Under the pieces are notes generated by a model, which was given only the letters and a program-made list of their open reading frames with translations, was not told where the DNA came from and did not search any database. Below are positions 3,168 through 10,972 of a stretch of DNA of 47,537 nucleotides, piece by piece. The stretch's first letter is position 1; each line of letters starts with the position of its first letter. Made by a program: the position numbers and the translations under genes. The stretch comes from Eubacteriales bacterium (GTDB taxonomy: Bacteria > Bacillota > JASUSC01), in contig JASUSC010000005.1 of the NCBI GenBank assembly GCA_030446285.1, forward strand, positions 1 to 47,537. Direction: 5' to 3'.

Positions 3168-4370
3168 TTACTCCTCCTCGTCCTGGCGGCGGTAACGAAC
3201 AATAGCATCGCTCATCCGTGCCACCCGCACCATTTCTTTGACATCGTGTACCCGCACGATGTCCACCCCGCTGGCAATCCCCAAAGCCACTGTCGCTGCC
3301 GTCCCTTCCATCCGCTCGTCTACGGGCAAATCCAGCGTTTTGCCAATAACAGATTTGCGGGAAGTGCCGAGGAGAATGGGCTGTCCCAGGGTCTTTAGCT
3401 CTTTTAGAGATTTTAATACTTCCAGGTTCTGCTCATAGGTCTTGCCAAGACCTATCCCCGGGTCAACGATAATTTTCTCCCGGCTAATCCCGGCCTCCAC
3501 CCCGATGCGGATGCTCTCGGCCAGAAAAGCGAGGATTTCCTCCATCAGGTTGCGGTAATTGGTATCATGGCGATTGTGCATCAACACCACCGGCACTCCG
3601 TACTTCGCACAAACTGCAGCCATTTCCGGATCCGCTCTGAAACTCCACTGGTCATTGATGATATGGGCTCCCTCTTCCAGAGCCAGCCGGGCGGTAGAAG
3701 CTTTATAGGTATCTACCGAAATAGGCACCTTAAGTTCCCGTACCAGCCGTCGCAGGACGGGTAGAAGCCTTGCCTGTTCCTCTTCCGCCGGTACCGGAGT
3801 GTGACCTGGCCGCGTGGACTCAGCCCCCACATCGATTATATCTGCCCCTTCTTCCACCATGCGGTGAGCGTGTTCCACCGCCCGTCCCGGGTCGAAAAAT
3901 TTGCCCCCGTCCGAAAAAGAGTCGGGAGTAACGTTCAATATCCCCATCACCAAGGTCCGTTGGCCAATGGGGAGCCGGTAACCGCGGCAATCCAGGATAT
4001 ACGAGGGCCTTTTCTCCATGTTGTTCAAAACTCTTTGTAACTCCTCTGCCAAGGCTGGAAGACCAAAAGCCTGCATCTTCAGTTTACTGATCAGTCGGCG
4101 GTACTGTTCCAAAGTACCCATGAGGAGGACATCGCTTTCATCCACAGAAAAATTGGCTGCCCCGCGGACAATTGCACATTCTCCACCCTTGGAAAGCATC
4201 TCCTGCTTGATGAGGTTGGCAGCCACCGTGCGCACTTTTTCAATTTTTATCACCCGGAAGACGGCTTTGGGGGCCATAATCCTTATTCCCGGCTCGTCCG
4301 CCCCCACCCGCCGAATTTCCCGCCGGGCGTCTTCCAGATCCTCAATTTCTACCACGCGAAAATTGGCCAT
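3168..4370 (-). CDS. folP: Dihydropteroate synthase
   Basis: VMGILNVTPDSFSDGG, DVGAESTRPG, DPGIGLGKT motifs; about 140-aa N-terminal extension. Confidence 0.96.
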   Translation of the reverse strand: MANFRVVEIEDLEDARREIRRVGADEPGIRIMAPKAVFRVIKIEKVRTVAANLIKQEMLSKGGECAIVRGAANFSVDESDVLLMGTLEQYRRLISKLKMQAFGLPALAEELQRVLNNMEKRPSYILDCRGYRLPIGQRTLVMGILNVTPDSFSDGGKFFDPGRAVEHAHRMVEEGADIIDVGAESTRPGHTPVPAEEEQARLLPVLRRLVRELKVPISVDTYKASTARLALEEGAHIINDQWSFRADPEMAAVCAKYGVPVVLMHNRHDTNYRNLMEEILAFLAESIRIGVEAGISREKIIVDPGIGLGKTYEQNLEVLKSLKELKTLGQPILLGTSRKSVIGKTLDLPVDERMEGTAATVALGIASGVDIVRVHDVKEMVRVARMSDAIVRYRRQDEEE

Positions 4371-5065: not shown

Positions 5066-5084
5066 GCCGGGCTTTTTGCCCGGC
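5066..5084 (-). terminator. Terminator-like hairpin downstream of tetR
   Basis: Perfect GCCGGGC-AAAAA-GCCCGGC (minus) followed by TTCTTGGTTTTTAGG; modest U-tract. Confidence 0.6.
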
Positions 5085-5104
5085 GCAGTAGACCGCAGCC
5101 CATG

Positions 5105-5671
5105 TTACCTTGCCAGACTGTGAAGAGCCAGGTTAACCAGCTCCTCTGCCAACTTCTTCCTATCCATTCCCGGCGAATTGAGCAACCAGTGGAAAGTAGC
5201 AACACTAACCATGCCAAAAAGAGCAGTGGCCGCCGTCCAGGAATCCACCTCTCTGAACTCACCGGCAGCAATCCCCTCTTCAATTAACCTGCCGATGAGG
5301 GAATAATAATCCTGCAGCCGGGAACGGAAACTTTCCCGCGGCAGAGTACTGCCAACAAAATCCCCCAGGATTAGACTTACCTCTTCCCTGTACTCGCTGA
5401 AAAAGTCCACCTGGTCGCGGATAAGCCGCGCCATCCTCTCCGCAGCAGTCCCCACCGCCGTTACTATCTCCTGTGTCCTTCGTTCCAGTTCGTCAAAAAT
5501 CGAAAGGGTAAGCTGGAGAAACAGGTTTTCTTTGTTCTGGAAATAGTAGTAAAGAGTCCCCTTGGCCACTTTGCTCATGCGGGCAATTTCGTCCATCGTG
5601 GCCTTCTCAAAACCCTTTTGTGACATGACAGTCGCTGCTGCTTTGAGGATAGCTTTAATTTTGTGATTCAT
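5105..5671 (-). CDS. TetR/AcrR family transcriptional regulator
   Basis: N-terminal HTH KAAATVMSQKGFEKATMDEIARMSKVAKGTLYYYFQNKENLF. Confidence 0.95.
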   Translation of the reverse strand: MNHKIKAILKAAATVMSQKGFEKATMDEIARMSKVAKGTLYYYFQNKENLFLQLTLSIFDELERRTQEIVTAVGTAAERMARLIRDQVDFFSEYREEVSLILGDFVGSTLPRESFRSRLQDYYSLIGRLIEEGIAAGEFREVDSWTAATALFGMVSVATFHWLLNSPGMDRKKLAEELVNLALHSLAR

Positions 5672-5683
5672 CTTCTTCCCCCG

Positions 5684-8227
5684 TTACTGCAGTACTAACC
5701 CTTCCTGGGGAGCGAGGTCAGATATTTTCAGCTTCCTGGCGGTGAAGAAATAAGTCAGGATTAAAGCTCCCAGTCCGAAGAAAGCCATGGCTGTTACCGC
5801 CGCACCATAGCTCATGCCGCTGCCGCCGGAAACGGCTTCCCGGAGTCCATAAACTCCGTAGGTCATAGGCAGGAAGGGTCCGATAGTCCGGAAAAATTCC
5901 GGCAAAAGCTCGAAGGGAAAAGCTCCCCCGCAGGAAGCCAGTTGAAGAATAAGCAGAGCCACTGCCAGAAAGCGTCCGGCAACACCAAAAGCGGTTACCA
6001 GAAAGCCAATAATAGCCATAAAGGTTAAAGACATCAGGATGTTAAAGAGGAAGAATTTCCCTTCGGAAACTACCTGCAAATTCAAGCCTTTTTCTAATAT
6101 TATACCAGAAATTACAGCCTGAAGCACACCAACAACTGCTACCGCGAGGTATTTGCCTACAAGGACCTGCCAGGAGTGAACGGGTGATAAGGCAAGCCGG
6201 AAGTCTTTCAAGTTAATGAGGAAGAAAAGGACCAACGCTCCTATCCACAGGGAAAGGGGCAAGAAATAAGGAGTAAAAGCAGTACCGTAGTTCTCCACGG
6301 GGTGCAGCCTTTTTTCAATCAATTGAACCGGCTTGGCGGTTATCTCTCGACGTTTCTGGATAAGAGCTGGAGAAAGCTCCTCTTTGCCCTTTGCCACCCC
6401 TTGCGCAAGCCCTTCCTCCAACTGGGAAGCTCCTTTTACTAGTTGCCCTAAGCCAGCGTGTAGCTCAGAAAGGGCGCCAGCAATTTTTTCCGTGCCACCT
6501 GCCAGTTCGGCCGCTCCGCTGGTCGCTTTTGCCGTACCCTCTGCCAATTGTTTTCCGCCTGTTGCTAACTGCTGAGCAGCACCCCCCAGTTTCCTGCTCC
6601 CTTCAACCAGTTGCGAAAGGCCAGCATAAAAATCACCATACCCGCGCTGCAGGCGGCCAAACCCCTCATCCAAAACGGCCATTTTCTCCGGCAGCCCAGC
6701 TGTGCTACTGACAATGGTCTGCAGCCCTTGACTCAAAGCACCAGCGCCATTCTCAAGTTGCCTGGAACCATCTCTTACCGCCAGAGCCCCTTCCTTTAGC
6801 GTTTCTGCCTCCCCTTGGAGCAAATTCATCCCGGGCAGAAGTTGTTGGTCATAAGTAGTTTGCGCCGCAACCAAAGCACCGGCAAAACCGCCATTGGTCC
6901 CAGCAAGGGTCTGTTGCCAAAGGGCCAGCTCGGCGCTGCCACTGCCAAAAAAGCTGTCCAGCGCTTTCCGGTCATCGGCCGTCCCATCTAAAGTGTTACA
7001 GGAATCTTCCAAAAGCGCTAAAACTCGGTCAACTTCCGGATCTGGATGGGTCTGTCGGTACTGCTGCAAGAAAAGACGAGCCTGATCCAGACTTTCTCTT
7101 GTCCCAATAATTGCTTGGTTAGTTCGCTGGTATGAAGTCGCCGCCTGTTGCAGGGAGGAGAGGAAAGCCGTCAGTCCTGCCTCTACCTGGCGGTAAGAAG
7201 TTAGTAGTTGATCTAAACCGCTTTTAATCTTCCCCCAAAACTGTTTAATACCGGCAATTAATTCCGCCGTCCCGTCTGTGTAAGCCTCCACCCCACAGGC
7301 CAGTTCTTCCGTCCCAGCAGCCAGCTCCCCCGTCCCTGCTTTCAGGGAAGCGGCTCCCGTTGCCGCTTCTTTAATTCCTCCTTGGAGCCGGCTTATTCCC
7401 GGTGCCAATTGCCCGGCAGGAAGGGCCGTTATTCCGGTAGCAATTGTCTTGCCCCCTGCCTGGAGCTCTGTCATCTTGGCGGCAAAGATCTCGACGTTTT
7501 TCTCATAGGCCTCCAAGCCGGCTGCCAGACTGTTGCTGCCATCAGCCAACCGAGTTAATCCTGTGCTCAGCTCCCCTGCTCCTGCCCTCAATTTCCCTGC
7601 TCCCTCATGCAATTTCCCCGCTCCTTCTCGGGCAGATGCTGCCCCCTGGGCAAGCTGTTTGCTGCCCTCGGCTGCCTGGGCTACCCGCTCTACAGAATTC
7701 GCCATTTCTGCCAGTACTCTTCCTATGGCTTCTGCGACAATCTTCTCCTCCACTTTTTGGGCCAGACCCTCAACCACCCGTTTGGTCAACTGAGCCGCCA
7801 GATAGTTTTTCCCTTCGTTGTACGTTACTTCAATTCCTACCTGGCGGGGATCTTTACTCCGCATCTGGTACAGTCTGGCTGAAAAATCTGACGGAATTCT
7901 AACGATCAGGTAATATTTTCTACCCTCCAATCCTCGCCTGGCTTCGTCCATGGTAACAAAATGCCATTCAACCGCATCACTCTTTTTCAATTCTTCAACC
8001 AGGTCACGGCCGCCCTCTATCTTTTCTCCTCCCCTCTTGTAGCCCTGGTCTTCATTAACTACCGCCACCGGCAACCGGGAAAGTTTCCCATAAGGGTCCC
8101 AGAAGGCAGAAAGATAAACAAAACTGTAAAGAAGAGGAACCAAAACCACGGCAGTGAGGGCTATCCGGGCAAAGCGGGTACTGAGCAGTTGCTTTAACTC
8201 CACTCTGGCTATCCGCAAAAAATTCAC
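5684..8227 (-). CDS. YhgE/Pip domain membrane protein
   Basis: N-terminal TM with DPYGKLSRLPVAVVNEDQG, long Ala/Gly/Leu coiled heptad-like repeats, C-terminal multi-TM ABC-2-like segment. Confidence 0.93.
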   Translation of the reverse strand: MNFLRIARVELKQLLSTRFARIALTAVVLVPLLYSFVYLSAFWDPYGKLSRLPVAVVNEDQGYKRGGEKIEGGRDLVEELKKSDAVEWHFVTMDEARRGLEGRKYYLIVRIPSDFSARLYQMRSKDPRQVGIEVTYNEGKNYLAAQLTKRVVEGLAQKVEEKIVAEAIGRVLAEMANSVERVAQAAEGSKQLAQGAASAREGAGKLHEGAGKLRAGAGELSTGLTRLADGSNSLAAGLEAYEKNVEIFAAKMTELQAGGKTIATGITALPAGQLAPGISRLQGGIKEAATGAASLKAGTGELAAGTEELACGVEAYTDGTAELIAGIKQFWGKIKSGLDQLLTSYRQVEAGLTAFLSSLQQAATSYQRTNQAIIGTRESLDQARLFLQQYRQTHPDPEVDRVLALLEDSCNTLDGTADDRKALDSFFGSGSAELALWQQTLAGTNGGFAGALVAAQTTYDQQLLPGMNLLQGEAETLKEGALAVRDGSRQLENGAGALSQGLQTIVSSTAGLPEKMAVLDEGFGRLQRGYGDFYAGLSQLVEGSRKLGGAAQQLATGGKQLAEGTAKATSGAAELAGGTEKIAGALSELHAGLGQLVKGASQLEEGLAQGVAKGKEELSPALIQKRREITAKPVQLIEKRLHPVENYGTAFTPYFLPLSLWIGALVLFFLINLKDFRLALSPVHSWQVLVGKYLAVAVVGVLQAVISGIILEKGLNLQVVSEGKFFLFNILMSLTFMAIIGFLVTAFGVAGRFLAVALLILQLASCGGAFPFELLPEFFRTIGPFLPMTYGVYGLREAVSGGSGMSYGAAVTAMAFFGLGALILTYFFTARKLKISDLAPQEGLVLQ

Positions 8228-8865
8228 TTTCTTGCCACCCCTTTCTCCATATCTATCACCTGGTCGGCTATGTCCAATTCCCCTTCTTTGACGGTAGTAA
8301 AAACAACTAGTCTGCCTTCTCCTTTTAACTCGCGAAAAATTTCCTTCACCTCTTCTTCCTCGTTTCTTTTCAAACTGCGGAAAGGCTCATCCACCAGAAC
8401 TATCTCCGGGGAACCAATCAACGCCAGCGCAATTCCCACTTTCAAGCGGCGCAAGGGATCGAGGCGGAAAAGAACTTCGTCTGGGCCAAAATCGGCCCGC
8501 ACTTTGCTAAGCAAAGTCTCAACAGTTCTTGTCTCTATTTTTTGTCCCTGCAAAGCAGCCTGAAAGCGGCAGTTGTCCGCCACCGTAAGCGAAAAATAAG
8601 GTTCGTAAATCCCCTCGACAAAGGAAAGTCCCACCCGCCGTCTAATCGCACGGGTCTGCCGGAGAGGGTCCATCCCCAGCACTGAGATTTCTCCCGCCAC
8701 CGGTTTAATACCCCCTATAATCGCCAGCAGCGCCGCCGTTTTCCCCGACTTGGCCCGGCCGTGAAAGGCGGCTATCCCGCTGGCAGGAAGAGAAAAAGTA
8801 AGAGGTGGAAACTCCTCGTGCCAGCTAAATCGGACCCCGCGGAAACTGACCGCCAAATTGCGCAC
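8224..8865 (-). CDS. ABC transporter ATP-binding protein with degenerate catalytic motifs
   Basis: Walker A GRAKSGKT and Walker B EIVLVDEP present; expected signature region reads LDPLRRLKVGIALAL. GTG start at 8865 with AAGGGGG SD; 4-bp overlap with the YhgE/Pip gene. Confidence 0.85.
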   Translation of the reverse strand: MRNLAVSFRGVRFSWHEEFPPLTFSLPASGIAAFHGRAKSGKTAALLAIIGGIKPVAGEISVLGMDPLRQTRAIRRRVGLSFVEGIYEPYFSLTVADNCRFQAALQGQKIETRTVETLLSKVRADFGPDEVLFRLDPLRRLKVGIALALIGSPEIVLVDEPFRSLKRNEEEEVKEIFRELKGEGRLVVFTTVKEGELDIADQVIDMEKGVARK

Positions 8866-8876
8866 CCCCTTTCTTG

Positions 8877-8890
8877 ACTGACTGGTCAGT
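8877..8890. promoter_or_regulatory. Palindromic operator candidate for the adjacent TetR regulator
   Basis: ACTGAC-TG-GTCAGT perfect 6-bp inverted repeat just upstream of the first gene of the ABC-YhgE-tetR operon, overlapping a TATACT -10-like hexamer. Confidence 0.75.
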
Positions 8891-9171
8891 ATATAATCAA
8901 TATAAAAAAAAACGCCATGCGATTCAACCCCCGAAAAAAGTAAATAAGCATGTTTTCTCTTTGAGCTTTCTTTTAAAGTTCTTGAGCCTTCTTTCTTACG
9001 ATCTAAAAAAGCCGGCAGATTGTCAGCCCTTTTCTCTTAACTGGATTTTTAACCGTAGCCTGTACCCCTTCGAAAAGGTCTTGGCCTACGTTCCCAAGAA
9101 TCTGGGGCAACAAAATTAAGTTCCCCAAAGAAAAGAAACCCACCTGTTTCCCGTAGCCTCTCGGAAAGAAA

Positions 9172-9211: not shown

Positions 9212-10972
9212 TTAGAAGAGACCCTTGACCGCACCCGTGTTGACGTCGATGTCGATACGGCGGAAAGCCGGGTCGGAAGAAGTACCGGGCATCAGGCTGA
9301 TGTCGCCAGCCATGGGGCAGAGGAACTTCGCGCCGCTGTAAACCAGGATGTCGCGGATAGGCAGTACCCACCCTTTGGGAACACCTTTCAGGTTGGGATC
9401 GTGGGACAGGCTCAGGTGGGTCTTGACCATCATGGTCTGATAGTCGCGGTACTTGGGATCGGACTCGAACCGCTTGGCTTTTTCCTCCGCCACCGGCGAC
9501 CAGGATACGCCATCGGCACCGTATACTTCTTTCGCGATGAGCTCTACGCGCTGACGCAGCGGCATCTCCAGCGGATACAGGAACTTGAAGTCCACTTTTT
9601 CGTTGCAGGCGTCGATAACCGCATCCGCCAGCTCAAGCGCACCTTCGCCACCCTTGAGCCAGTGCTCGGACACAGCGCACCGGACACCCAGCTCTTCCAT
9701 TCTCCGCTTAACCAGTTTAATTTCCTCTTCGGTATCAGTAAAGAATTTGTTGATGCAGACGACTGGCACGATTCCGGACTTCTTGACCACGTTGACCATG
9801 TGAATGAGGTTTTCCAAGCCCTTGTCAACCAGCTCCAGGTTTTCAGAGGTGTACTCGCTGGGAATGGGCCGACCAGGCACAACTTTGGGACCGCCACCGT
9901 GCATCTTGAGAGCCCGGATAGTGCACACCACAACGGATACGTTGGGAATGAGACCGCTCAAGCGGCATTTGACGTTCCAGAACTTCTCGAAGCCGATATC
10001 AGCAGCAAAACCGCTCTCGGTAACATGGTAATCGAACATCTTGAGACCCATCCGGTCAGCGATGATGGAGCTCTGACCGATAGCAATGTTGGCGAAGGGA
10101 CCAGCATGCACCAGCACCGGCTGACCTTCAACCGTAGCACACAGGGTGGGATGGATGGTGTTCCGCATCCAAGCGGCCATCGCACCGGCAACTTCCAGGT
10201 CCTCGCAGGTAATGGGGTTACCACGACGGTCAAAAGCGACGGTAATTTCACCGATACGCTTCCGCAGGTCAGCCAAGTCAGTAGCCACAGCCAGAATAGC
10301 CATCAATTCGGAGCTAACGGAAATGCCAAACCAGGACTGCATCGGGTAGCCGTCTTTCTTCCCGCCGAGACCAATGACGATGTTCCGCAGAGCCTGGGCT
10401 GCAAAGTCGATCACCCAGCCCATCTGGACATTTTTCGGGTCAATGTCCAGACGACGGAGACCACGCTGGGCCAGCTCTTCGTCAGTGTAGTTGGCCTCGT
10501 GCTGCATGCGGGCAGTAAGAGCAACCATAGCCAGGTTATGAGCGTTGGTAATGTCATTGATGTCGCCCGTCAGACCCAGGGAGAACTCAGTCATGGGAAT
10601 CAGGAGAGCGTTACCGCCGCCAGCAGCCGTACCTTTAATGTTCATGGTAGGACCGCCAGAAGGCTGCCGGAGAGCTCCACCAACATTTACTCCCCGCTTA
10701 CCAAGACCTTCGATTAGGCCGATGGAAACGGTGGTTTTACCTTCTCCCAGCGGAGTCGGAGTAATAGCGGTTACCTCGATGAACTTGCCGTTAGGACGGT
10801 CCTTCAGCCGCTCCATTACCTTCAGGAAGTTAATCTTGGGAGTTCTCCCGTAGGGGATCATCTCGTCCTTTTCCAGTCCCAGCTTCTCGGCCCACTCTTC
10901 ATAAGTGGGAAGATATTTCTCCGCTTCCTGGGCTATTTCCCAGTCTTTCATTTTAGTAGGATCGTACGGCAT
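9212..10972 (-). CDS. fhs: Formate--tetrahydrofolate ligase
   Basis: [50 protein letters not shown] and C-terminal [21 protein letters not shown] motifs. Confidence 0.97.

Follow-up and report, generated by a model that had tools for sequence, protein, structure and literature searches.

Why should a bacterium keep a dedicated ABC-type nucleotide-binding domain (NBD) protein beside its YhgE/Pip protein, a long membrane protein of the cell surface, while that NBD sheds the residues of catalysis? Proteins of the YhgE/Pip family are found widely among Gram-positive bacteria and act as phage receptors. The question is raised by a cassette on contig JASUSC010000005.1 of an Eubacteriales bacterium (assembly GCA_030446285.1), which we analysed within a stretch of 47,537 nucleotides, hereafter called the window. 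Here, an NBD gene, yhgE/pip and a tetR gene follow each other in this transcriptional order as a compact minus-strand unit. This variant of the YhgE/Pip system is real, conserved and under-described: gene order, motif losses common to its relatives, purifying selection and a unique conserved operator were all observed. We propose that it is a self-regulated operon in which YhgE/Pip would be served by a dedicated NBD acting as a nucleotide-sensing or structural clamp and not as a motor, and we give this proposal an even chance of being right. An NBD that stays beside YhgE under such losses suggests a partner retained for a purpose other than ATP hydrolysis, and the pairing offers a direct way to find out whether YhgE transports or serves as a scaffold. 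No description of a degenerate NBD partner of YhgE was found in open-access papers (subscription papers and preprints lay outside the search) or in the searched family libraries.

A first-pass annotation of the window had called three tightly packed minus-strand genes for an ABC ATPase, a YhgE/Pip protein and a TetR regulator, with a 4-bp overlap of the first two. Open reading frames and sequence confirmed this layout, in which the overlap likely reflects translational coupling, and profile matches confirmed all three family assignments. The NBD scored 43.3 bits against PF00005, above the gathering cut-off of 25, and its best NCBIfam match was DrrA, far below the cut-off (64 vs 312 bits). The YhgE/Pip protein exceeded the cut-offs of both TIGR03061 (189.5 bits, cut-off 96.15) and TIGR03062 (216.3 bits, cut-off 102.2), also matched the heptad repeats of TIGR03057 and reached 120.5 bits against the ABC-2 membrane domain PF12698 at its C-terminus. 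Re-reading of the sequence likewise upheld the earlier motif description, according to which Walker A and Walker B are kept and the Q-loop Gln, LSGGQ, the D-loop and the H-loop His are gone. Compared with GxxGxGKS/T, Walker A retains Lys and Thr and has Lys instead of Gly at the fourth position. The Q-loop reads VGLSFVEGIYEPYFSLTV, without Gln and with FVEGIYEP in a 16-residue segment, and the D-loop position is occupied by FRSLKRN, not SALD. The NBD hence falls short of the complete catalytic set expected of the partner NBD of a canonical ABC-2 exporter.

Is this the decay of a single gene copy? Genome searches at order and class level returned the window's own genome alone, indicating that its lineage is sparsely sampled, and the search was widened to the phylum. 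An NBD or YhgE this close was found in only four of 399 sampled genomes, namely the window genome and three Carboxydothermus-type genomes of one genus (G047, G086 and G122, the last being the same contig as Carboxydothermus islandicus locus L013). Apart from L013, the related-locus matches were mostly ordinary ABC genes without YhgE. The order NBD-YhgE-TetR is common to the three Carboxydothermus-type genomes as far as their contigs reach, so that the gene-neighbourhood check recovered the three-gene unit outside the window. Identity to the Carboxydothermus cassette is about 54% for the NBD, 50% for YhgE and 58% for TetR (the latter in L013, at the same position). In the alignment at the Q-loop, signature, D-loop and H-loop positions, the Carboxydothermus NBDs showed motif losses identical to those of the window NBD. 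The window copy is therefore not uniquely decayed, and decay of this copy alone was rejected. Among the Carboxydothermus NBDs, dN/dS ranged from 0.12 to 0.25. The longest invariant runs in the four closest NBDs, VGLSFVEG and YEPYFSL, both lie in the replaced Q-loop, and K42, D159, E160, R140 and K142 are invariant as well. With motif loss found in relatives of two phyla, the NBD gives the impression of a subunit put to new use rather than of a broken gene.

The second of these phyla revealed what the first-pass annotation had missed: the window NBD belongs to a far wider family of degenerate YhgE-linked NBDs in Actinomycetota. There, an NBD-like gene lies directly upstream of YhgE on the same strand at 15 of 30 sampled YhgE loci, and the same arrangement occurs on four actinobacterial plasmids from Rhodococcus (L157), Arthrobacter (L156 and L166) and Tsukamurella (L165). 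The plasmid loci were found with YhgE as query, whereas the NBD query yielded mostly ordinary ABC proteins. Together with the NBDs of the window and the three Carboxydothermus genomes, this gave a set of 23 YhgE-linked NBDs. None of them contains LSGGQ, 21 have lost the H-loop His (L125 and L111 align a His there), and all 23 have a G-to-T Q-loop segment of 16 residues. In 49 ordinary NBDs, this segment counts 14 or 15 residues in 44 cases and 16 in two. The ordinary set was selected in part on the patterns of Walker A, signature and Walker B, which makes its conservation at these motifs partly circular; neither the length of the Q-loop nor the H-loop entered the selection.

Within the family, erosion is graded, from the window NBD, which is predicted to be competent for ATP binding, to members without a recognisable P-loop. 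The Walker A Lys is kept by the window, Carboxydothermus and L106 NBDs; a Streptomyces-like group has GPSGSGRT at Walker A and DD where DE is expected; and in the other actinobacterial groups the P-loop can no longer be recognised. Most actinobacterial members have lost both the Walker A Lys and the catalytic Glu and have kept the pairing with YhgE. The NBDs of L165 (1321-1989), L112, L156 and L166 are among the most eroded, and the two members tested with Pfam, L165 and L112, were not recognised. In public records, the L165 NBD is labelled 'hypothetical protein' and the L156 NBD 'ABC transporter ATP-binding protein'; current annotation misleads, since several YhgE-linked NBDs carry one or the other label. 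Bacillota YhgE cassettes typically contain TetR and no NBD, and the many cassettes of this kind indicate that YhgE can do without an NBD motor. In Actinomycetota, YhgE genes were also seen in tandem pairs that have no NBD (L119, L120, L123 and L124). Two further loci (L092 and L093) encode shorter YhgE-like ABC-2 permeases of about 400 amino acids below the TIGR03061 cut-off; in contrast to full-length YhgE, they lie beside NBDs with near-canonical signatures and H-loops.

Phylogenetic and profile comparisons group these proteins. The 23 YhgE-linked NBDs fell on one side of a branch and the 49 ordinary NBDs on the other, also after removal of the motif columns (97/96). As the Q-loop columns were dropped from the tree, the 16-residue Q-loop length is separate support. 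In hhalign, the profile of the window pair matched the Streptomyces-type group (99.1%, E 1.6e-18) and the Pfam-negative actinobacterial group (96.6%, E 6.8e-10), and the two actinobacterial groups matched each other (98.6%). A tree of the YhgE N-domain placed all NBD-bearing YhgE proteins in one half (99/95) with nine NBD-less ones among them and required three changes of the NBD label, which fits an early NBD-YhgE pairing and later losses of the NBD; transfer is a possible alternative. Somewhat more tentatively than for the window cassette itself, we suggest that this clade, comprising Actinomycetota and two Bacillota lineages, consists of non-hydrolytic YhgE/Pip subunits that would act as clamp or sensor without an ATP motor, the window NBD being an ATP-binding intermediate. 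In a very small sample, comprising the window protein (5684-8227) and L156-L160, NBD-bearing YhgE proteins seem to start with a slightly longer cytosolic part than NBD-less ones, and in most of them the C-terminal membrane domain also seems to have a longer first cytosolic loop, with L158 as exception.

How is the cassette controlled? The TetR protein matched PF00440 (63 bits) and TetR_C_24 (PF17932, 52.3 bits) and reached 87.7 bits against the Bacillus-type FadR equivalog of NCBIfam, below the cut-off of 200. This C-terminal domain and the sub-threshold FadR match weakly hint at a lipophilic ligand. The predicted operator is the sole site at up to two mismatches in the 1.7-Mb window assembly, which is about 82% complete and could thus miss further sites. 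Inside the window the pattern matched twice, once perfectly and once with three mismatches, against 0.18 matches expected by chance. The site, exact or with one mismatch, occurs once per genome at up to two mismatches in four of four genomes (the three Carboxydothermus genomes are 94-99% complete), always immediately upstream of the NBD start, and a reversed-pattern control gave zero matches in these genomes. The palindromic operator ascribed to the cassette in the first-pass annotation is a unique palindrome conserved at the putative promoter in the four genomes and a candidate binding site for TetR, and the simplest reading would be a repressor dedicated to its own operon. Upstream of the operator in Carboxydothermus (L013:5915-5950; L162-L164) lies an inverted repeat with a T run, TTTGACCGG...CCGGTCAAATTTTTTT, which is likely the terminator of the preceding gene.

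From these elements, the following course of events can be envisaged. TetR would sit on the operator, between promoter and ribosome-binding site, until released by a small, perhaps lipophilic ligand. NBD and YhgE would then be made in step through the 4-bp overlap, and the NBD would dock onto a YhgE dimer from the cytosolic side and use its intact Walker motifs, A and B, to bind Mg-ATP. Since LSGGQ is gone, the NBD should be unable to form a normal ATP sandwich, and the former Q-loop may have become a new conserved contact segment. Both features suggest that the NBD is mainly a nucleotide-sensing or structural clamp instead of a motor, in which case transport or conformational work by YhgE would not be powered by canonical ATP hydrolysis. 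The window NBD would represent a mild stage of a family that later loses its Walker motifs in Actinomycetota, with related YhgE cassettes managing without any NBD.

Several points weigh against this proposal. Among the four closest NBDs, neither the Walker A Lys nor the Walker B Asp nor the catalytic Glu varies, which might indicate that hydrolysis is still under selection. It is gene order only that points to a physical contact of NBD and YhgE. Structures predicted from two-sequence alignments had a mean pLDDT of 53 for the NBD and 49 for YhgE, below usable confidence, so nothing was concluded from them. Moreover, the YhgE-linked NBDs are all long branches, and the tree may suffer from long-branch attraction. 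Could the cassette then be an ordinary ATP-driven ABC-2-type exporter with altered chemistry, in which Walker A, Walker B and the Glu work and R140 and K142 replace LSGGQ at the phosphate across the dimer? The invariance of these two residues together with K42, D159 and E160 would agree with such a design, as would the score of the YhgE C-terminus as ABC-2 membrane domain. We nevertheless consider it unlikely, given that no signature, Q-loop Gln, D-loop or H-loop His is left, that sister NBDs without Walker A Lys and Glu are still paired with YhgE and that many YhgE proteins have no NBD at all.

Less likely still is a heterodimer, in which the degenerate NBD forms one half and a canonical NBD encoded elsewhere supplies signature and active site. 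The heterodimeric NBDs of exporters with one degenerate site are usually encoded together. A second NBD is absent from the cassette in every genome seen, and YhgE is single-copy in the window genome. Yet such exporters are well known (review PMC7756269), and the window genome holds 22 canonical full-length PF00005 matches elsewhere; the check for a second NBD therefore came out clean for the cassette and leaves room for a partner supplied in trans. The idea of a decaying, functionless NBD gene is largely refuted and has only a very slight chance: several motifs are lost and related YhgE proteins manage without NBD, but the NBD frame is open in all genomes at the dN/dS given above, the unit has a conserved operator and a 4-bp coupling, and both Walker motifs are strictly conserved, as is the new segment at the Q-loop. 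The first-pass annotation had seen in the NBD a non-canonical subunit that binds nucleotides and belongs with a YhgE/Pip system, and this reading is supported by homologues with the same missing motifs and by the lack of a second NBD in the cassette. Its interpretation as a whole is supported in part: the NBD may drive, gate or merely support YhgE.

Table 1 Features of the NBD-YhgE-TetR cassette in the window.
Feature	Position	Strand	Details
ABC-type NBD gene	8224-8865	minus	213 aa, GTG start; hydrolysis motifs degenerate; PF00005 match
Walker A, residues 36-43	8737-8760	minus	GRAKSGKT; Lys intact; no variation at K42 or T43 among the four closest NBDs
Q-loop replacement, residues 79-94	8584-8631	minus	GLSFVEGIYEPYFSLT; no Gln; 16 residues instead of 14-15
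Signature position, residues 135-144	8434-8463	minus	LDPLRRLKVG; no LSGGQ
Walker B and catalytic Glu, residues 154-161	8383-8406	minus	EIVLVDEP; intact, Glu160
H-loop position, residues 187-193	8284-8304	minus	VVFTTVK (then E); no His
NBD stop/YhgE start overlap	8224-8227	minus	4 bp, GTGA; read from the sequence
yhgE/pip	5684-8227	minus	847 aa, GTG start; ABC-2-like ends, large heptad-repeat middle
tetR (TetR/AcrR-family repressor)	5105-5671	minus	188 aa; last gene of the unit
Predicted TetR-type operator	8875-8890		TGACTGACTGGTCAGT; 16 bp; palindromic core ACTGAC-N2-GTCAGT (6-bp arms, 2 bp between)
Promoter-like element	8899-8927	minus	TTGAAT-17-TATATT; just upstream of operator; consensus match, not above shuffle expectation
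Intrinsic terminator after tetR	5066-5084	minus	7-bp all-GC stem, T-rich tail

The cassette is flanked on either side by folate genes, all on the minus strand: HPPK (2280-2771), dihydropteroate synthase (3168-4370) and formate--tetrahydrofolate ligase (9212-10972). A functional link to YhgE is not evident. A role in defence was unsupported, as PADLOC matches were weak and generic.

Compared with known systems, the cassette resembles the B. subtilis-type TetR-yhgE cassettes, where the pair bears the names yhgD (TetR) and yhgE, and lactococcal and enterococcal Pip in that YhgE/Pip has an adjacent TetR-family regulator. These cassettes differ in having no NBD and in placing TetR upstream, not downstream. 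For PIP-EF, a phage-receptor role was reported, and the YhgE/Pip domain was described as being without known function (PMC4999554); in E. faecalis resistant to ginkgolic acid, the mutated genes included one for YhgE, for which no role was established there (PMC8754111). The window protein also shares its N-terminal architecture with EsaA/YueB of type VIIb secretion (T7_esaA_Nterm, 76.7 bits) and differs from EsaA in staying below the cut-off of 122 bits; no genes of a type VII secretion system were among those seen beside the cassette. The type VIIb machine with EsaA is likewise reported to include an enzyme fold that has lost catalysis, the pseudokinase YukC/EssB (PMC9600267), a parallel to the degenerate NBD that is suggestive only. 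With DrrAB-like ABC-2 exporters, the cassette has a PF12698 membrane domain and an adjacent NBD in common; DrrA-type NBDs, however, carry LSGGQ, the Q-loop Gln and the H-loop His, all three of which the window NBD lacks. Degenerate catalytic motifs as such are shared with ABC exporters that have one degenerate site, but in those one of the two sites is canonical, whereas a homodimer formed from the lone, signature-less NBD of the window would have both sites degenerate. If our reading is true, the cassette would be a rare ABC system whose only encoded NBD has no complete catalytic site.

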